A DNA stretch of 64,000 nt, taken from assembly GCF_003076455.1 (NCBI RefSeq), contig NZ_CP020918.1:2888001-2952000 (forward strand). Reading direction: 5' to 3'. Below the pieces are notes generated by a model. That model ran no database searches. It had not been told where the DNA came from and saw nothing but the letters and a program-made list of their open reading frames with translations. Positions 39,442 through 49,272 of this stretch are shown here, in pieces. Made by a program: the position numbers and the translations under genes. Origin of the DNA: Flavobacterium faecale. Lineage in GTDB: Bacteria > Bacteroidota > Bacteroidia > Flavobacteriales > Flavobacteriaceae. How positions within the stretch are numbered: the stretch's first letter is position 1; each line of letters opens with the position of its first letter.

Positions 39442-39471
39442 TTGCAGAAATATAAAAAGATTGTATATTTG
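39442..39471 (+). promoter_or_regulatory. Promoter of the SRP RNA gene
   Basis: TTG (39442-39444), a 19-bp spacer and TATATTTG (39464-39471) form a complete Bacteroidota promoter, placing the transcription start at about 39476. Confidence 0.7.
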
Positions 39472-39475
39472 CACC

Positions 39476-39577
39476 GGCAAGTCCTACACGACCAGCTCCT
39501 GCAGACTCCCCCAGGATGGGAACATAGCAAGGGTACGTGGTTGAGCGGTGCGATGTAGGTCGCTTGCCATTTTTTTT
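39476..39577 (+). ncRNA. ffs: Signal recognition particle RNA (4.5S-like, small bacterial type)
   Basis: The ends pair: GGCAAG (39476-39481) with CTTGCC (39563-39568), and CCTACA (39483-39488) with TGTAGG (39554-39559), forming one long hairpin. The apical part has CTCCCCCAGGATGGGAACATAGCAAGGG-type sequence, resembling the conserved SRP domain IV with its GGGAACA and AGCAAGGGTA segments as seen in Bacteroidota. A T8 run closes it (39570-39577). It is the RNA scaffold for Ffh in co-translational targeting. A short minus-strand open frame across it is spurious. Confidence 0.85.
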
Positions 39578-39853: not shown

Positions 39854-40420
39854 TTAAAATCCAAAATATTTAAATACAACTACATCATCAATCAAACCTT
39901 TCTTGCCAGCATAATCAATGGCACTACTGTAAACATAATCTTCGGGATTAAAGACAAAACCTGCCTCAACAGGATTATTGTGTATATATTCTATTTTTTG
40001 TTGTATTACGGCATTGCTCCACAGCTCAATTGGTTTATTGTCATGTCTCCAAAATTGATAATGTTTTACATTTGAACTTTTTTCTGCTTCTTTTTTAAAA
40101 AAATCAAGTAGAAATTCTCTACGACTCTCTTTTGAATTTTCTTGAATGCTTTTTACAATTGACCTGCTCGTAAATCGCTTTAAATCGCCAATTAATAATT
40201 CAGGATTTTGTCCATCTATACTCCGAAAGACCAAATGTACATGACTAGTCATTATACACCAAGCATAAATTTCTAAACCTTTGTTCTTTTGACAAAATTG
40301 CAAACTTTCTAAAAACAAATCTTTGTACTCATTTCTCATAAAAACATCTAACCAGCCCACCACAGCAAAGCTGATAAAATATACTCCATCTGGATTATGA
40401 AATTTATAATTCCTACTCAT
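39854..40420 (-). CDS. REP-associated tyrosine transposase (Y1/IS200-like HUH enzyme)
   Basis: A 188-residue HUH transposase. The metal-binding HxH lies in MTSHVHLVF (about 58-66), after a YFISFAVVGWLDVF strand. The catalytic tyrosine is expected in the C-terminal helix region NAVIQQKIEYIHNNPVEAGF (about 142-161), whose YIHNNP motif is characteristic of the RAYT group. RAYTs process REP palindromes by single-strand cleavage. The gene is intact. Confidence 0.9.
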   Translation of the reverse strand: MSRNYKFHNPDGVYFISFAVVGWLDVFMRNEYKDLFLESLQFCQKNKGLEIYAWCIMTSHVHLVFRSIDGQNPELLIGDLKRFTSRSIVKSIQENSKESRREFLLDFFKKEAEKSSNVKHYQFWRHDNKPIELWSNAVIQQKIEYIHNNPVEAGFVFNPEDYVYSSAIDYAGKKGLIDDVVVFKYFGF

Positions 40421-40609: not shown

Positions 40610-41071
40610 TTAATATTTGTATTTCTCAGGATGTTTTTCCCTTTTATTTATAACCTCAAATAATCTTTTAGTAATATTGTCTTTTTCTCTTTCTAAAACA
40701 ATAATTCTACCAGACTTATTTTTTTCGGGTTGGAGATATAAAAATATTGTATTTTCATCGTATGTCAAAACATCAAAAAAACCTCCTCTCCAGTCTAAAA
40801 TAGAGTCATTTTTAACACTCCATTCCGATGGTAATATTATATTATCAGCTGCACCAATATACTTTTTGTATTTATTAGTTTCTCTATCTAAAGTATATCG
40901 GTCAGAAATTTTATTTTCTTTAAAAATATAATGTGTAAATTGATATTCATTATCAAAACATATCCAAGATTCATTTGGGTTGTTTATTAATATTTCTTCT
41001 AAACTTCTTTGCCTATCACATCCCGTAAGGATAAATAAGAATATAATTAATTGGCTTATTTTAGTTTTCAT
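40610..41071 (-). CDS. Small lipoprotein of unknown function, coupled to the HEIFH protein
   Basis: A 153-residue protein with a lipobox (IIFLFILTGCDRQ, Cys about 18). The rest is a single compact domain (SWICFDNEYQFTHYIFKEN, DWRGGFFDVLTYDENTIFLYL), ending in a charged tail with HPEKYKY. Not recognised as a known family. Its start overlaps the end of the upstream HEIFH gene by 11 bp, so the two are translated together. A small lipoprotein directly behind a putative secreted metallopeptidase is compatible with an inhibitor or immunity role, but that is inference. Confidence 0.7.
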   Translation of the reverse strand: MKTKISQLIIFLFILTGCDRQRSLEEILINNPNESWICFDNEYQFTHYIFKENKISDRYTLDRETNKYKKYIGAADNIILPSEWSVKNDSILDWRGGFFDVLTYDENTIFLYLQPEKNKSGRIIVLEREKDNITKRLFEVINKREKHPEKYKY

Positions 41072-42707
41072 CTGATATAATTTTGTAAGGTATTTGCGGT
41101 AATAAACTATTGAAATTTTGTCTGTCTCTAATTTTTATATCTAACGTTCCTTTTTGGTTGTAATCAAGAGGATCTATTACAAAAGTAAAGTCTAATCCAG
41201 CAATATTATTAAAATTATCTATTTTTTGTTTTATTTCATAAACAGGATAATCTCTTTGAGTATCTGTTCTTTTATCCATGTTTAAAATATACCTTACTAA
41301 TGATCTTATAGTACCAATTTGATAATCCCGAGTAGCATCTTTAAATGTAATATGTTTCATGGCATTTATATAGACATCGATATGTGTAGATAAATTATCT
41401 GGAGTCTTTAATATATTATCATCCACATGAAATATCTCGTGTTTTAAAATACTTTTAAAATTATTAACATTATCCAAATCTTTTGAATAGCCACCATTTG
41501 AATTTAGAGTTATCACGCTTCCTTTTGTACCATCACTAAATTTAACAGAAGAAAGTGTACTTGCTTGATTTTCAGACGATGGGTCTGTAGCTTTCCTCGA
41601 GCCAATATAAAAAAAGTTATTCTTATCATTTAATTCTCTTGCCAAAGATGCAGCATATCGATTTAGTTCGATTCCATCAAAATGTGAATTAGGATCTAAT
41701 TCAGATGGTTTTTTGTATGTTCCATCTTCAGATTTTATTTTTACTGTATTGCCTTCAATTCGAAAATCGGGTGGTGTTAAATCTATCAGATTTACAATAT
41801 CCACAAAATCGCTTTCAGCAAGATTCTCTTCACACGAACACATTTTTTGTTCTCCTTTTGTGACAACTATTTTGCTGGTTGTTAGCTTTGAGGTAGTACA
41901 GGGTTGATAACAATCATCTGGAGGGGTGTTACCTTGTGTTTGACTGTCTTCTTCATCATCAGGAATATCATTAAAAGCACCTGTGTTTTCATAATCAGTT
42001 CCAGTATTTGTAGGGAACCCTGGAGGTGTTGTTGAGGTTTTATCTGGACATTCTTTACCTTCAAATCCTCCAATGTAACCGCCATTAAACTTGGTTGATA
42101 CAGCCGTCCATGTATAACTTAATGATTTGATTTCATAATAATTTCCATGTTGCAAAATTTCTGGGTTTACTAAATTGGCAGCAGCAGTTCCAGTTTCAGT
42201 GAAAAGATTTTTACGTACTTTATCTAAATCTGAAAAATAAAATGGACCATTAAAAGTAATAACATCTCCTATTTGATAGTTTAAAGAGTTACCAGGCACA
42301 TAAGTTTTATTTTTTCCTTCTGAACAATCATCTTCTGCAATTTTTATACAACTACAATCTTCGTTTTGAACAAAACCTTCAATGCATGTATTTGGGCAAA
42401 CAATCTCTATATTTGATGGTGTGTCACCATAATCACCATCATCACCACCATCACCACCACCATCATCATCACCATCATCATCACCAAATTGATCTTCTGG
42501 TTCTTCAGGATCAGCGGGCCAATCAAAATCATCAGATGAACCATTATCAATAATTACTTCGTCTAATTCACCTAAATCCCAAGTATCATCATCATCATCA
42601 TAATATTCATAATCATCATCATCATCGCAATCATCCTGAGCATAACTACCCTGTCCTGCTAACAAGCAAAATAGTAGCATTACAAATGTAAAATATTTTA
42701 TTTTCAT
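41061..42707 (-). CDS. Exported Asp-rich protein with two C4 cysteine motifs and a HEIFH metallopeptidase-like motif
   Basis: A 548-residue protein. The signal peptide is at 1-24 (LLAGQGSYAQ). A highly acidic Asp/Gly tract is at about 25-95. Two cysteine modules follow: Cys104/108/118/120 (CPNTC, CSC) and Cys266/270/290/292 (CYQPC, CSC). The C-terminal domain has SILKHEIFHVDD with H423-E424-x-x-H427, the gluzincin/metzincin-type zinc motif. A THIDVY histidine and a conserved-looking DYQIGTIRSLVRYI helix follow. The acidic tract is coded by GAT/GAC triplet repeats that could vary in length. No named family recognised; the peptidase call rests on the motif and its helical, secreted context. 6 nt after the Sel1 gene. 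Confidence 0.7.
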   Translation of the reverse strand: MKIKYFTFVMLLFCLLAGQGSYAQDDCDDDDDYEYYDDDDDTWDLGELDEVIIDNGSSDDFDWPADPEEPEDQFGDDDGDDDGGGDGGDDGDYGDTPSNIEIVCPNTCIEGFVQNEDCSCIKIAEDDCSEGKNKTYVPGNSLNYQIGDVITFNGPFYFSDLDKVRKNLFTETGTAAANLVNPEILQHGNYYEIKSLSYTWTAVSTKFNGGYIGGFEGKECPDKTSTTPPGFPTNTGTDYENTGAFNDIPDDEEDSQTQGNTPPDDCYQPCTTSKLTTSKIVVTKGEQKMCSCEENLAESDFVDIVNLIDLTPPDFRIEGNTVKIKSEDGTYKKPSELDPNSHFDGIELNRYAASLARELNDKNNFFYIGSRKATDPSSENQASTLSSVKFSDGTKGSVITLNSNGGYSKDLDNVNNFKSILKHEIFHVDDNILKTPDNLSTHIDVYINAMKHITFKDATRDYQIGTIRSLVRYILNMDKRTDTQRDYPVYEIKQKIDNFNNIAGLDFTFVIDPLDYNQKGTLDIKIRDRQNFNSLLPQIPYKIISDEN

Positions 42708-42713
42708 TACTTG

Positions 42714-44273
42714 TTATTTTTTAATTAAAATGGTTTTTATTACTTGGTCGTTATAGTACAGATTCAGGATGTAGTTACCTGCAGAAGCATTGAAGGGTAT
42801 AATTTGTTCTTGTAGTCCTGTGCCAGTAGTTGTGAGCTTTTGAGTGCTTTTGAGCAATCCCATAAAATCATATATACGAATACTAATTTCGGTTGGAATA
42901 GTCAGTTCGTAGCTTAGTTTAAAGCTATTACTAGTTACTGGATTAGGATAGACCACTAGATGCGAAACAATGGTGTTTGCTGGGTTTGCGACTGGTTCTT
43001 TCTCTTCGTCATTCAATTTTCGCTCTAGGATGAGGTACATTGGTTTTTCGTTTTCGTGCTGTTTAATGTTGTACAATTGCAGGTTGCCTACAATATATAT
43101 ATCGTCCTCGTTTTCGAGTAGTTGCAGTTTGGCTTCCTTGAATTTATACGACTTCATTACGGGCTCTACATACCTATTGAGACGGTCTATTTTAGAATCG
43201 TTAAACAGGATTCTTTTTTCTTCGAGCGTGGCTTTAAAGGCTAAAGAATCGCCTTCTTGTTCTGTCCATATTCCTGCAAGGGCTTGTCCGTCTTGGTCTA
43301 GCGTTATTTTGAGCGGTGTGGTAGTAATGATGTTTTGACCGCTCCAGTCGTAGCGCATGAGGTGTCCTGTGTATTCGCCACTAATATCACCTTTAGCGAT
43401 TTTGTGTTTTACCTTTTTTATTTTTTTAGGCACTTCAATAGGGGCATTTTCTACGTCTTCGGCTAGGGGTGTCGAGACAGTTTTGATTTGATTAGGTTCG
43501 GCATTTTCAGATTCGGGTTGTGCTAGTTCCAGCTCGGCTCTTTTGAAACCCAAATCGGCAGCTTGGTTGTAATATTGGCTCGCTTGTTCTTTGTCTATCG
43601 TTACACCATAACCATTACTGTAGCAATAGCCTAGCATATAGATAGCTATGGGGCTTTTTTTGTCGGCAGCTATTCTAAAGTATGCTAAAGCTTTGTTGTA
43701 ATCTTGTGGAACTCCAAAACCTTTATAATGCAAATACCCTTGAGCATAAATACATTGCGCATTTCCTAATGCAGCTCCTTGTTCAAAAATATCCATTGCT
43801 AGAACATAGTCTCGTGTGGTACCCAAGCCATTTTTTACCAATTCGCCCCAGCGTGCATACCCATTTATATCACCTGCTTTGGCTGCTTTTTCAAAATTGC
43901 TTACCGCTTTGGTTAAGTCTTTGGGTATGCTTACACCTTCTCTGTATAGTGTTGCAAGGTTGTAATAGGCTTTGCCATAGCCATTTTGAGCTGCTTTCTC
44001 AAACCATTCTATTGCCAATACATCATCGGTGGGGACTCCTAAACCTTGAATGTAGATTTGAGCCAATCCATTCATTGCTTCAGGATTGCCCTCGGTGGCT
44101 AGCTGCTGAAAAGTTTGTAGTCCTGCTTGAGGATTATACAAACGGGAACCTTCCATAAGCTGTAATCTAGCTTTTTTTAGAGGGTTGGGTGGGTCGGTGG
44201 CTGTTTGCGAAAAACAGTGTGTACTGCCTAGTAGCAGTAGCAGGGCAACCCCAGTGGTAATTGTTTTTGTCAT
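42714..44273 (-). CDS. Sel1-like repeat protein with T9SS type A sorting domain
   Basis: A 519-residue secreted protein. Signal peptide at 1-22. Five Sel1/TPR-like repeats span about 60-245 (units like YYNLATLYREGVSIPKDLTKAVSNFEKAAKAG). A linker and a beta-rich domain cover about 300-420 (YTGHLMRYDWSGQNIITTTPLKITL). The last 80 residues are a sorting domain (VVYPNPVTSNSFKLSYEL, IRIYDFMGLLKSTQK, YYNDQVIKTILIKK). Sel1 repeats mediate protein contacts. Surface exposure is inferred from the sorting domain. In the same minus-strand series as the genes either side. Confidence 0.85.
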   Translation of the reverse strand: MTKTITTGVALLLLLGSTHCFSQTATDPPNPLKKARLQLMEGSRLYNPQAGLQTFQQLATEGNPEAMNGLAQIYIQGLGVPTDDVLAIEWFEKAAQNGYGKAYYNLATLYREGVSIPKDLTKAVSNFEKAAKAGDINGYARWGELVKNGLGTTRDYVLAMDIFEQGAALGNAQCIYAQGYLHYKGFGVPQDYNKALAYFRIAADKKSPIAIYMLGYCYSNGYGVTIDKEQASQYYNQAADLGFKRAELELAQPESENAEPNQIKTVSTPLAEDVENAPIEVPKKIKKVKHKIAKGDISGEYTGHLMRYDWSGQNIITTTPLKITLDQDGQALAGIWTEQEGDSLAFKATLEEKRILFNDSKIDRLNRYVEPVMKSYKFKEAKLQLLENEDDIYIVGNLQLYNIKQHENEKPMYLILERKLNDEEKEPVANPANTIVSHLVVYPNPVTSNSFKLSYELTIPTEISIRIYDFMGLLKSTQKLTTTGTGLQEQIIPFNASAGNYILNLYYNDQVIKTILIKK

Positions 44274-44387: not shown

Positions 44388-45671
44388 TTACCATTTTAAT
44401 TGACTTTTGGTAACGGTAGTATTTTTTTCATTCCTTTTGATAGAGTCCAATTGTTTGAGTAAGTCGGGTTTTTTGAGCTCTATATCTCGTTTTTTGAACA
44501 TATTGACTGCACTTTTATTCATTTTTAGTTGGTCGCTAACCATTAAATAGCGCAATTGGTACATAGCAAATTGTTTGGTTACTGTTTTTTGATCTTGCCC
44601 TTTTGTAAGCCCTTTGTTTTCAAGCTCAGACCACTTTTCTTGTGCAATTTGTATCGCATTCTTTTTATTTTTGTTTGCCAACAATTTTTCAATTTGTTGC
44701 GGGTCTAGGATAGATGCAATTGCCGTGTTTTCAAATAACGTATAAGTGTCTGTTTTTTTGAGTAGTACATTGGTTGCTTTGTCTTTGTATTTCATTATTT
44801 CCAATTCTTTGTATTTGGATAATAAAGAGTCAATTTGAGTGGTGTTGAGGTTTAGTTCTTTTTCAAATTGAATCGCTAGTGAGAAAATATTTATTTTGTA
44901 TATAAAATCTGATAAAATATTAAATCGAGTTAACACAGGTGGTTGTTTTTCGAGTACAATTAGATTTTTTATTTCGGTGCTTTTTTTGGCATCAAATTTT
45001 TTTGCGCTGGAGTCTATATAACTATTCAATCCTATATAATAATCCAATAGTTGGCGATGTACGAGACTACTATCTTTGGCAGCTACCAATTTTAGTTTTT
45101 GAATATTTTTCCAATCATTGTCTGCTTCTTCTTTTGATTTGTCTGTATAAACCAAATTAATTACCATTGCAAATTGCTTTTGATTGAGAATAGTATCGAG
45201 TTTTTGGTTGTAAAACTGTTGTTTTTGTACTGATTCTTGCATGTTTTGAAAATCCAAAAGCTGGTTATGAGCTCTAATGGCAATGATTTGTTGGGTTGTT
45301 AATTCTAGTTTTTTGGCAGATTTTAAAGCCAAAAGAAATCTGTTTTTGTTGTCTAGTTTGTATTGGTAAGCATCTAACTGTTCGTCTGACAAAATACCTG
45401 TTAGTAATTTTTGAGTTGTTGGATAGTAATTTTTTAAATTAGCAATGGGCTCTCCTTTGGCAACACTTAGATTTGCAAGACTATCATTGGCAATTAATTT
45501 GTTGCCAATTTTAAATTGCTGGTCTTCAGTAAGTACTGTTTTAGTTGAGATATCATAAATTTTATTAAGCATTGAAGCAGGAAATTTTTTTATAACTTTC
45601 GGACTTAATTGTGCCGTAATCAAGCTTGATGCCATGAAGAATAAGAGCAAGAATGGAGTTGTTTTTTTCAT
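44388..45671 (-). CDS. Exported helical protein built from three Spy-like LTxxQ units
   Basis: A 427-residue protein with a signal peptide (MKKTTPFLLLFFMASSLITAQ). Apart from that it is almost wholly helical and cysteine-free. It contains three repeats in which an LTxxQ-type motif is followed some 35-45 residues later by an ILxxxQ motif: LTEDQ 47 / ILSDEQ 93, LTTQQ 124 / ILNQKQ 161, and LNTTQ 275 / ILDPQQ 321. LTxxQ pairs mark the Spy/CpxP periplasmic chaperone fold. A multi-domain version is unusual, and chaperone function is inference from the motif alone. Confidence 0.7.
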   Translation of the reverse strand: MKKTTPFLLLFFMASSLITAQLSPKVIKKFPASMLNKIYDISTKTVLTEDQQFKIGNKLIANDSLANLSVAKGEPIANLKNYYPTTQKLLTGILSDEQLDAYQYKLDNKNRFLLALKSAKKLELTTQQIIAIRAHNQLLDFQNMQESVQKQQFYNQKLDTILNQKQFAMVINLVYTDKSKEEADNDWKNIQKLKLVAAKDSSLVHRQLLDYYIGLNSYIDSSAKKFDAKKSTEIKNLIVLEKQPPVLTRFNILSDFIYKINIFSLAIQFEKELNLNTTQIDSLLSKYKELEIMKYKDKATNVLLKKTDTYTLFENTAIASILDPQQIEKLLANKNKKNAIQIAQEKWSELENKGLTKGQDQKTVTKQFAMYQLRYLMVSDQLKMNKSAVNMFKKRDIELKKPDLLKQLDSIKRNEKNTTVTKSQLKW

Positions 45672-45757: not shown

Positions 45758-47278
45758 TTAAAACCACGTTCGTTCTCCTGTATCATCAATTATAAACGGC
45801 CGTTCAAGTCCTTTAGAATCGCTACTCAAGAGTAGAAGCAAAGCATTTTTGGGTACTTTATGAAATAGGAGTGATACTGTAGTTTCTGTGGCTGTAATAG
45901 TCTCGGTCAATTGCCATTTGTTATTCCAATACATTAATTTGTAGCTTACATTGGGTTTTATGATTAAATAATTGGCTAGTGATTTGATGTTTATATCCTG
46001 CAATTGATTGAAGTCGGGAGTTAAAACGGTATTTTCGGTTTCTCCCACAATAATAGGCGCACCAGCTGGAATCATTTTCTCATTACTGTAATATTGAGGT
46101 AACACGACTGTGCCTAGGCAAATTTGATCAAATTGAGAGTCGTTATTTATGATTTTTCCCCACCAAAAAGGTTGCCAACGTAAACTACTAAAAGTACAGG
46201 CATAAACGATTTTGTTTGGTAGTTGATTGGGGTATAAAGAACATTTTACGTTTCTTGTTTTCCAATATTCATTTGTAACATCGAGGAAGTTAGTTTCTCT
46301 TAAAAACCCCTTTGGGATTTTATCTTGTTCTTCAAAACTAGCTAGGTTTTGTGGGTTTTTAGAATAAGTTGTTCTTAGAACTTTGGCAGGTTCTCGTCTT
46401 AGTTTTTCATTGTATTCTTTTGTTCCATAGTCAAAATGAGTGGGTTGGTTGTTATCGCCAAAAAAAGCGTTCAACGCATGACCTCCTTTTGTGGTTGCCC
46501 AATAGGGAATAAAATCTACGGTGGCAGGAATTCCTTGAGAGCGCATGGTAAAAACTCCTAAATCTGCCAAGTCTTCACAAGGACCTTGTTTGCGAAAAAG
46601 TAGTTGCAGACTGCCTAATCGAGGCAAAGGGTCTTTGCGTTTGCCAAAACTCCAGGTATTTGTAAACCACGAATTGGCTTCGTCGGTTACATACGGAAGG
46701 ATGGCTTCAAAACCAATGTCTTTTATTTTAGGAGTTATCCAGCTAAATTTTGTGCTATATGCAGTTCTCCATTCTTGAAGTGGCTCTATATTGATTCTAT
46801 AAGGTAAAATATAGTCGCAAAAAGCATCGAATGAAATGTTTTTAACAGGAGAATATTTCCAAGCATCAAATGCTTTTTCGAGATTGTTTATCAAGAAATC
46901 TCCTTTGATGGTTTCAATATCGTTACTCTTAAATGGTTTGGGTCTCAAACCGGGATTTTGAGTTTTGATGTATTCAATTACTTTGGAAGCTTCATTAAAA
47001 TCGGGATAATCTAGTTCGTTGTAGGCGATTTTTTGACCATCTTTGCTTTCCCAATAATAATCCGCCGATTGGTGGATGTCCATATTGGCAATCAAAAAAT
47101 AAATGGCTTGTAGTTTTTTCGGGTCATTTGTTTGCTGGCAATGTGCAATTGCTTTCTCCAATTCAGGTCGATTACTACCTGCCTTTTTTAGATTTTGTTC
47201 AACAGCAACAGGATGTTGAGCGTACACTCCAAGTGAGCAAATTAGCAAGAATAATAGTGGCTTAAATTTGTGTAACAT
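45758..47278 (-). CDS. Exported transglutaminase-like protein
   Basis: A 506-residue protein with a signal peptide (LLFLLICSLGVYAQ). The transglutaminase-like core has the nucleophile in QGPCEDLADLG (Cys234) and the histidine in TKGGHALNAFFGD (His267, Asn270), spaced as in bacterial transglutaminase-like peptidases. There is a long N-terminal helical part (about 25-200) and a C-terminal beta region (about 340-506). Such Bacteroidota proteins are usually peptidases or amidases rather than cross-linking enzymes. It lies directly downstream of the phase-variable ligase-like gene (101-bp gap containing GTTTAAT-word repeats). Confidence 0.8.
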   Translation of the reverse strand: MLHKFKPLLFLLICSLGVYAQHPVAVEQNLKKAGSNRPELEKAIAHCQQTNDPKKLQAIYFLIANMDIHQSADYYWESKDGQKIAYNELDYPDFNEASKVIEYIKTQNPGLRPKPFKSNDIETIKGDFLINNLEKAFDAWKYSPVKNISFDAFCDYILPYRINIEPLQEWRTAYSTKFSWITPKIKDIGFEAILPYVTDEANSWFTNTWSFGKRKDPLPRLGSLQLLFRKQGPCEDLADLGVFTMRSQGIPATVDFIPYWATTKGGHALNAFFGDNNQPTHFDYGTKEYNEKLRREPAKVLRTTYSKNPQNLASFEEQDKIPKGFLRETNFLDVTNEYWKTRNVKCSLYPNQLPNKIVYACTFSSLRWQPFWWGKIINNDSQFDQICLGTVVLPQYYSNEKMIPAGAPIIVGETENTVLTPDFNQLQDINIKSLANYLIIKPNVSYKLMYWNNKWQLTETITATETTVSLLFHKVPKNALLLLLSSDSKGLERPFIIDDTGERTWF

Positions 47279-47379: not shown

Positions 47380-49229
47380 TCAACTACGACTGACCACTTT
47401 CTTAGCTTTCATCTTATAATACTGTACTTTTCTTGACGGTATTTTAGGCTTTAAGTCGATTATCTCTTGGGCAGCTTTTTTTGCATTTGGGATGTCCTTG
47501 TTTTTTAAATAGGCCTGCATCAATAAGTTGCGATACTTGAATTTAGAAGGCTTTGTCAAGATTAATAGTCGAAATTGAATAATGGCGTTGGCGTATTGTC
47601 CTAGTTTTTGATATGAATACCCCTTGCCTAAAAACAATTCGGGGTCCGAACTGTACGATTTGGCTTTGTTGAGGCAATCGATAGCGTCTGAATATTTTTT
47701 TGTTTTATAATAAACCAATCCTAAATTTTTCCAGTAATCAGGGTATTGTTGTAATTTTGGTTGGATTTTCTGGAGTATTTTTAAGGCTTCTGGATAATTT
47801 TTAGTTACTACAAGCAAAGATGCTTTTTTGTTTTGTCTGTCGGCAATTGCAGTATTGACAAGAGAACTTAACAAGAAAATGCTAATTGCAATTCCCCCCA
47901 TTTTAATTGTGGTGGCAATAGAGTTGTCTTTCATAGCTATCCATTTTGGCAATGAAATAGGTTGCACTTGGCAGCAAATTATAGCCGCATAAATTGAGAA
48001 CATTGTCATAGCAGGAATACATTGTGTCGCAACATTAACCATCGCTATTATTACAAAAGCAAACACTCCAGCAAAGGAAAGATGAAAAATGCGATTATTG
48101 TTTATGGAGTATTGTGGCGATTCGCTATCTTCTTCCAGATTTGCACTTTCGACTAAGGACTTAGGACTAAGTACTAATGACTTTCTACTCTTCAAAGCAA
48201 CTAGTAATGAACCAATAAAAAATGACAATAATGTGAGCCCAACTAATCCACCTTCAACAGCATTTTGAAAAATTTCGTTATGAGGGACTAAAACGTGTCC
48301 TGCATTTTGCATTTCTTCGGAGGTGGCTTTACCTTTTTCGATATATTGTGCTTGAAATAAATTGTATTCTTTTTCGAATAAACCATAACCATAACCTAAT
48401 AATGGTTTTTCTACAACCATCAAAGTCGATAATTTCCAGATAAATTTACGCCCGTCCGACGAGGCTTTTTTGCTGTTATAAAGTTGGTTGCCAATTGGAA
48501 TTAGAATAATACAAAAAACAATCGCAAGTGCTTTGACAGACATTTGATTCTTTTTGTCTTTTGCCCATTTGATAAAATCATATTCTAAACCAAAATAAAT
48601 TACGGCAGCCATTACAATACCAATCCAAGCCGCTCTACATTTGAGTAAATACAGCGCAACTAATAGAAATGCGAAGCTAATAGCCGTTATTTTTGACTGT
48701 TTTTGTCTGAAAGAAGCATAAAAGAATGGAGTTGTCATGGCTAGAAATAATGCCGTAACATTGGGGTTACTCCATGAACCTGTAACTGTAAAGAGGTTGT
48801 TTTTGCTTTCTAATGTGCCAAAAAATTGTAGTAAACAATAGCAAGATTCTACTGTAGCAATAGCAATAATTCCAAAAGCGAGTAGTTGGAAGTCGAATTG
48901 AGGATGTTTGAATAATTGAGTAGCAGTACAAATTAGCAGAAAATGTATGCCATAATAAATAACAATGTCCGTTGAACCACCTATTAAAAAATACCGAACG
49001 GCAATGTAAGAAACCCATAAACCACAAAGTAGAATGGGTAAACAAGTGTTAAGTTGTTTATTATCAGTTAAATATAAATGGGGGGGGGGGTAATTGCAAA
49101 TAGCAAAGCACTTATGCCAAAGGCATAATAGGCAATGCTAGTGGTTTGGTAGAAATAATCTGTATTGATAAGTCCTGCAATAATTGTAACTAACAATAGA
49201 AGCGTTGGAAAGGTAATTTTGCTATTCAC
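47380..49229 (-). CDS. O-antigen ligase/polymerase-like membrane protein with C-terminal TPRs; out of frame in this sequence (phase-OFF)
   Basis: Two open frames join across an 11-G tract (49080-49090). The upstream frame starts at GTG 49229 and encodes membrane helices (TFPTLLLLVTIIAGLI, YYAFGISALLFAIT) then prolines. With 11 G it stops at 49068 after 53 residues. The downstream frame continues LPILLCGLWVSYIAVRYFLI, through FTVTGSWSNPNVTALFLA (Wzy/WaaL-like signature), AAWIGIVMA, and HNEIFQNAVEGGLVGL to TPR repeats at the C-terminus (about 480-595 of the joined protein). 9 or 12 G would give 615 or 616 residues. The longest uninterrupted part, from ATG 48738, has 452 residues and lacks the first helices. 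Predicted role: polymerising or ligating surface glycans. A TATGTTTG element on the minus strand (49265-49272) supports the 49229 start. Confidence 0.85.
48144..48185. repeat. Six degenerate heptamer repeats inside the ligase-like gene
   Basis: CACTTTC-GACTAAG-GACTTAG-GACTAAG-TACTAAT-GACTTTC units in tandem. They encode KSLVLSPKSLVES in a loop. Six units of 7 keep the frame; loss or gain of one would not. Confidence 0.6.
49080..49090. repeat. Poly-G tract of 11 (poly-C in the coding strand), phase-variation switch
   Basis: Eleven G on the plus strand in an AT-rich genome, within the 5' part of the ligase-like gene, coding prolines in a loop between membrane helices. The frames before and after it agree only for 9 or 12 G. 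Confidence 0.85.
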
Positions 49230-49264: not shown

Positions 49265-49272
49265 CAAACATA
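49265..49272 (-). promoter_or_regulatory. Minus-7 element (TATGTTTG) of the ligase-like gene
   Basis: A perfect TAnnTTTG match on the minus strand 36 nt before GTG 49229. No clear minus-33 TTG. Confidence 0.4.

Follow-up and report, generated by a model that had tools for sequence, protein, structure and literature searches.

This study concerns a stretch of 64,000 nucleotides from Flavobacterium faecale (contig NZ_CP020918.1, positions 2,888,001 to 2,952,000 of the forward strand), which is referred to below as the window and numbered from its first letter, and, within it, a minus-strand gene for a ligase-like protein whose reading frame breaks at a run of 11 identical bases. Compared by LptD, the genome has its closest named relatives in Flavobacterium sp. 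7A (89%), F. algicola (85%) and F. faecale (83%), and so belongs in Flavobacterium. The initial annotation had placed exactly 11 G on the plus strand at 49080-49090, and this count was correct. It had also described a frame that opens with GTG at 49229 and stops at 49068 after 53 residues, which was confirmed, and a second frame beyond the tract, which was found to continue for 566 residues and to end in tetratricopeptide repeats (TPR), as had been claimed. The features of the gene are as follows.

49080..49090, minus-strand gene: run of 11 C on the coding strand (11 G on the plus strand; letter count), the proposed contingency repeat
49068..49229, minus strand: upstream frame from GTG 49229, 53 residues, stop at 49068, aligned to the N-termini of the family up to the tract
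47380..49080, minus strand: downstream frame, 566 residues open up to the terminal stop, with the final C of the tract as its first base (translation and homology)
47380..48738, minus strand: first start-to-stop open reading frame (ORF) in the downstream frame, 452 residues (P0003), without the N-terminal part
48226..48678, minus strand: Wzy_C domain (O-antigen ligase; Pfam, E 2e-16), covering residues 135-285 in the downstream frame
47581..47802, minus strand: TPR region, which by the extent of the ANAPC3 match covers residues 427-500 in the downstream frame; TPR_2 is the strongest match (447-475)
49265..49272, minus strand: TATGTTTG, 43 nt upstream of the GTG, resembling the consensus of the -7-like Bacteroidetes promoter element (weak evidence)

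The downstream frame is open from 49080 to 47383 and has no ATG, GTG or TTG start codon ahead of ATG 48738. The calculation that 9 or 12 C would join both frames into 615 or 616 residues, while 10 or 11 would not, agreed with our own arithmetic. The tract lies where the second membrane helix ends, and the coding strand there reads Ile-Thr-Pro through the C run; as CCC accounts for only 52 of the 531 proline codons in the ORFs that were counted, tandem CCC is unusual here. When both strands of the whole genome of 4,621,116 bases were scanned, the run at 49080-49090 was the only one of at least 11 G. The claim that such a run is unlikely by chance held for the window, in which a first-order model predicts approximately 0.0012 runs of at least 11 G or C, but the same model, with the window value multiplied up, gives approximately 0.09 for the genome, and therefore the rarity of the tract taken alone is moderate evidence and not decisive. 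The second-longest G or C run in the window has six bases. It is the sole other window run of at least six (47894-47899) and belongs to the same ligase-like gene, where it reads as G6 on the coding strand. The promoter-like octamer was dropped as evidence because it is too common, with 132 such octamers in the window.

Of 7999 candidates scored in a search for homologues, 102 proteins reached E<=1e-3, including the window's own P0003, and many of the full-length relatives have approximately 600-650 residues. The protein layout had 78 rows, 76 homologues and the two pieces from the window, with P0003, P0053, P0080, P0082 and the proteins ranked below P0082 being omitted. The 53-residue frame aligns with the N-termini of the family as far as the tract, and the homologue P0004 likewise starts with V at the place of the window's GTG start. 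Because both pieces align to one homologue family, one to its N-terminus and the other to the remainder, the 53-residue and the 566-residue frames are, judged by this alignment, one gene that is split at the tract. At the site itself, the metagenomic homologues P0004 and P0008 carry ITPPH in frame, and P0009, P0014 and P0023 open with residues that do not resemble the family immediately ahead of PP(P)H, after which the family frame is followed. For a test, the stretch preceding the site was compared, in each of the two shifted frames, with a profile built from 53 in-frame relatives; 300 random peptides taken from family proteins served as the control, and two shifts for three proteins made six tests. 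P0023 matches the family when read in the +1 frame, its final column falling exactly at the site, and none of the 300 controls scored as high. At the protein level, this suggests a length difference at the tract site in one lineage (P0023) and probably in two (P0009). The N-terminally short entries, which make up 20 of the 76 homologues, were also considered as OFF copies and then dropped, because in five named loci the open frame extends well beyond the first ATG on its 5' side, and gene calling can yield short entries.

The genome contains four G runs of at least eight bases, namely the G11, one G9 and two G8; all four are on the plus strand, which is not significant with n=4. The G9 (G000:C1:1764752-1764760; L003:1501-1509) lies in frame inside a 386-residue gene of the Wzy_C type, which is followed by a glycosyltransferase and is a candidate for a second contingency locus, with a Wzy_C match that is under the Pfam cut-off (28.5 vs 31.7 bits). 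Three Wzy_C matches, two of them above the cut-off, were found in the genome, and its two G runs of at least nine bases sit in two of these three. A G8 at G000:C1:1754232-1754239 (L002:1501-1508) falls in a gene with a Wzz domain, approximately 10 kb from the G9 gene. The remaining G8, at G000:C1:2811208-2811215 (L005:1501-1508), is in a stretch without an assigned gene.

Tracts of this length recur in the genus, as 26 of the 299 surveyed Flavobacterium genomes, the window genome included, carry a G11 run. One locus was inspected per other genome (25 loci, L089-L113), and second sites in G285, G250, G130 and G309 were left aside. Orthologous genes of three species (L090, L091 and L104) have tracts of 11, 12 and 11 G, and only the one with 12 (L091), which is annotated as an RCC1-repeat protein sorted by the type IX secretion system (T9SS), is open (tract at 1501). 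A second T9SS-sorted gene, with a shared site at 1501, is broken at G11 in L089 and open at G12 in L109, and a similar T9SS-sorted gene in L093 is open through C11 at a different site. Moreover, the G11 at L106:1501-1511 stands between two Methylase_S half-frames, which makes this locus a candidate phase-variable type I specificity subunit. Several other surveyed G11 runs fall outside clear genes. One low-complexity stretch (L110; G309:C1 from 2998100) consists mostly of G and T and comes from a genome with 160 overlapping G11 matches, all on one strand; it is probably either an artefact of the assembly or a repeat of a very odd kind.

The product of the split gene is best explained as a polytopic inner-membrane glycan ligase with a WaaL fold and a C-terminal TPR domain. 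This assignment draws on a structural model of the homologue P0004, which matches WaaL, as well as on the Wzy_C domain. A PDB sequence search with the Wzy_C part gave no match, and a PDB search with the family profile gave matches in the TPR part only, among the best 60 of 172 rows. In WaaL, conserved periplasmic arginine and histidine residues are essential; within the present family, R149 and R211 are invariant and H267 is nearly invariant in 51 aligned rows. We infer that the substrate is an undecaprenyl-linked glycan and that the acceptor is the lipid A core or another surface acceptor. The initial annotation had called the gene O-antigen ligase- or polymerase-like; of the two, the modelled fold is that of the ligase. 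The genes next to it are as follows.

45758..47278, minus strand: transglutaminase-like gene, 506 residues, second gene of the cassette (Pfam PF01841, E 1.3e-5)
44388..45671, minus strand: third gene of the cassette, 427 residues, with a signal-peptide-like start (by eye) and without a match in Pfam
42714..44273, minus strand: Sel1-repeat protein with a match to the T9SS C-terminal sorting domain just under the Pfam cut-off, possibly a further member of the cassette

The transglutaminase-like and the 427-residue genes are both open at full length in the window. Among 51 loci that were fetched with the ligase-like gene, a homologue of the transglutaminase-like gene was found in 29, among them the 20 that scored best by E-value (L023-L042), where it lies immediately 3' of the ligase-like gene; a homologue of the 427-residue gene was found in 16, and Sel1 homologues in six (five of the Prevotella type and one in Pinibacter). 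Some of these loci have short flanks, so that the absence of a gene from them is no proof. The loci were found with an alignment as the query, a contig search with a single sequence having returned nothing, and a second sampling of genomes around a different centre returned largely the same ones. The cassette occurs in Flavobacterium, and the pairing with the transglutaminase-like gene occurs also in Pedobacter, Chitinophagaceae such as Niastella, and records of the Prevotella type; additionally, a divergent pair stands side by side in opposite orientation in G004. Most of the Flavobacterium loci among L023-L042 also have the 427-residue gene behind the ligase-like gene. No cluster with flippase and glycosyltransferase genes was found around the gene, where the annotated neighbours are the transglutaminase-like gene, the 427-residue gene, a short-chain dehydrogenase/reductase and a transaldolase. 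The ligase-like gene heads a cassette with the transglutaminase-like and 427-residue genes and is not part of an O-antigen cluster.

In Porphyromonas, T9SS cargo is reportedly tied to A-type lipopolysaccharide (A-LPS; PMC8545088). Because of this, and because the next gene in the window is a Sel1 gene whose T9SS sorting domain is sub-threshold, a link of the cassette to T9SS anchoring may be imagined, which is speculation. The Sel1 gene is adjoined by a gene with a Tox-MPTase2 (metallopeptidase toxin) domain at 41061-42707. Farther along, the window holds a gene with an IS200-like transposase domain at 39854-40420 and, on the plus strand, a small SRP (signal recognition particle) RNA (RF04183) at 39468-39573.

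Taken as a whole, we consider it probable that the tract is a slipped-strand contingency repeat in a ligase of the WaaL fold, recorded at an OFF length. The C run would gain or lose bases, one per step, through slipped-strand mispairing at replication, and one residue class of tract lengths would give the full-length ligase, while the other two would give a truncated product. Cells would thereby switch between the full-length ligase (ON) and a stub of 53 residues (OFF), and the assembly would record one of the OFF lengths. The tract is predicted to lie in the loop between helices two and three, where an extra proline should be tolerated, and the cassette neighbours, which have starts of their own, may stay expressed when the ligase is OFF. 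We infer that the tract is hypermutable and that its changes are reversible. This reading is favoured because the sole G11 of the genome sits early in a gene and breaks it, because both halves are conserved coding sequence and the second runs for 566 codons without a stop, because P0023 and, with less certainty, P0009 change frame at this very site while P0004 and P0008 are in frame there, because the two longest G runs of the genome fall in Wzy_C-type genes, and because Flavobacterium T9SS orthologues differ by one G with matching open and broken frames. The frame changes of the relatives suggest that one surface-sugar step is reversibly switched on and off.

A number of observations weigh against such a switch. 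P0009 fits the family in the same +1 frame as P0023, and four of the 300 controls scored as high, which is weak after six tests; P0014 has three residues before the site, too few to judge. The tract lengths in P0004, P0008, P0009, P0014 and P0023 were deduced from protein and not read from DNA, and the window record is the sole member of its 90% cluster. Apart from the window's own, no G or C run of at least eight bases was found in the scanned set of family loci (L010 and above), among them 13 from named Flavobacterium records (L023-L033, L037 and L042), and therefore the tract appears confined to a few lineages. At its site, F. pokkalii (L032) has a run of only five C, and F. sufflavum (L023) reads ACTCCATATCAT. 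The phase-variable OFF state that was originally proposed is partly supported. Moreover, some frame breaks of the family are assembly errors or decay, because shifts of frame without a long G or C run are seen halfway through the gene in L084, at nine T (L029:2989-2997, shortly past the tract site) in F. branchiicola L029, and several times in a low-coverage metagenome-assembled genome that was apparently met twice (L042 and L082). A frame change in L083 was set aside, as it adjoins a run of N, that is, an assembly gap. In the survey of the genus, a common TPR gene (L098, L100 and L102) is open through G11 in three of three species, the G11 at L099:1501-1511 breaks a gene of the Mg-chelatase type, which is no surface gene, and no glycan enzyme was found among the ten annotated survey proteins.

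A rival explanation is a miscount in the assembly, the true tract being in frame and the gene simply ON, although the tract could still vary. Long-read consensus is known to be unreliable at homopolymers of 11, the single contig suggests long reads, which are error-prone at G/C homopolymers, the downstream frame is intact, and the break in L099 may itself be such an error. However, open ORFs of the window (ORFs that were not compared with homologues) contain seven A/T runs of 8-9 bases, so that homopolymer calls do not look generally poor, even though G/C runs can behave differently from A/T runs; a miscount here would also not account for the frame change in P0023 and P0009, and we regard this explanation as unlikely. 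A fixed loss, in which a dispensable gene broke at the tract and became a young pseudogene without regular switching, would suit the patchy family, which is present in 11 of 398 Flavobacterium genomes at E<=1e-60 (window genome included), as well as the frame breaks at other positions of the gene in L029, L042 and L084. Against it are the 566 codons without a stop, the two open, full-length genes downstream, and a break that coincides exactly with the genome's longest G run, at a site where P0023 and P0009 also appear broken, which makes a fixed loss very unlikely. Less probable still is leaky expression, with ribosomal or transcriptional slippage on the C run giving some full-length protein at any length and the tract tuning its dose. 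C or G runs can be slippery, and an 81-nt stretch including the tract folds somewhat better than its shuffles (z -2.7, equalled by 4 of 200) and has a weak hairpin or hairpins to each side of the tract (-6.2 kcal/mol in all); yet the two stretches that follow downstream do not stand out (z -1.3 and -0.9), no strong frameshift-stimulating RNA structure was found in them, and the homologues appear to vary in length instead of keeping one off-frame length. As for the product, the gene could encode an O-antigen polymerase (Wzy) of the lipopolysaccharide pathway, so that the switch would alter chain length. Pfam Wzy_C is also matched by the gene that adjoins a glycosyltransferase in this genome, and homologues are named 'O-antigen polymerase' in several sources, but the locus is not an O-antigen cluster, a ligase that acts on a glycan made elsewhere fits better, and we hold a polymerase to be quite unlikely.

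To our knowledge, most of the phase variation that has been described in Bacteroidetes is DNA inversion. According to titles cited in PMC5084427, Neisseria siaD (capsule polysialyltransferase) and lgt (lipopolysaccharide glycosyltransferases) are poly-C/poly-G contingency loci. The likeness to them is a slipped-strand length change in a surface-glycan gene, which is proposed here; unlike them, the present gene is found in Flavobacterium, encodes an enzyme of the ligase fold and not a glycosyltransferase, lies outside a glycan cluster, and is predicted to switch. The WaaL O-antigen ligase (PDB 7tpg; CAZy GT121), to which the product is likened by its modelled fold, differs from it in that a C-terminal TPR domain and a cassette with a transglutaminase-like gene are present here. 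In Flavobacterium psychrophilum, where wzy1/wzy2 are serotype determinants, surface-glycan antigenicity has been linked to a gene for a putative Wzy polymerase (PMC6519341). The wzy1/wzy2 variants are strain-to-strain allelic differences inside O-polysaccharide clusters, unlike the tract described here, and neither 'phase variation' nor 'homopolymer' occurs in the main text of that paper. The Flavobacterium T9SS cargo and hsdS-type genes are closer, with G11/G12 coding tracts and open versus broken frames between orthologues, although they encode secreted proteins and a restriction specificity subunit and not a glycan enzyme. No poly-G switch of a glycan ligase in Flavobacterium was found among the listed titles and first parts of abstracts in the open-access literature, and the best 10 of 26 matches for an O-antigen ligase paired with a transglutaminase contained no paper on the cassette. 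The mechanism is of a known kind, and the gene, the cassette and the genus are the new part.

On a wider scale, it is tempting, although somewhat short of probable, to think that environmental flavobacteria possess a poly-G contingency repertoire, small but genuine, comprising T9SS cargo, HsdS and Wzy_C enzymes, and that in F. faecale a hitherto undescribed glycan-ligation cassette (the WaaL-fold TPR ligase, the transglutaminase-like protein and the 427-residue protein of secreted type) and a second Wzy-type gene are switched on and off, so that one clone could hold several surface-glycan states. If the proposed switch is true, it would point to a conserved ligase-transglutaminase cassette, and it would also offer a simple handle, readable by PCR, on the question of whether clonal populations of free-living flavobacteria are kept heterogeneous at their surface by phages and predators.
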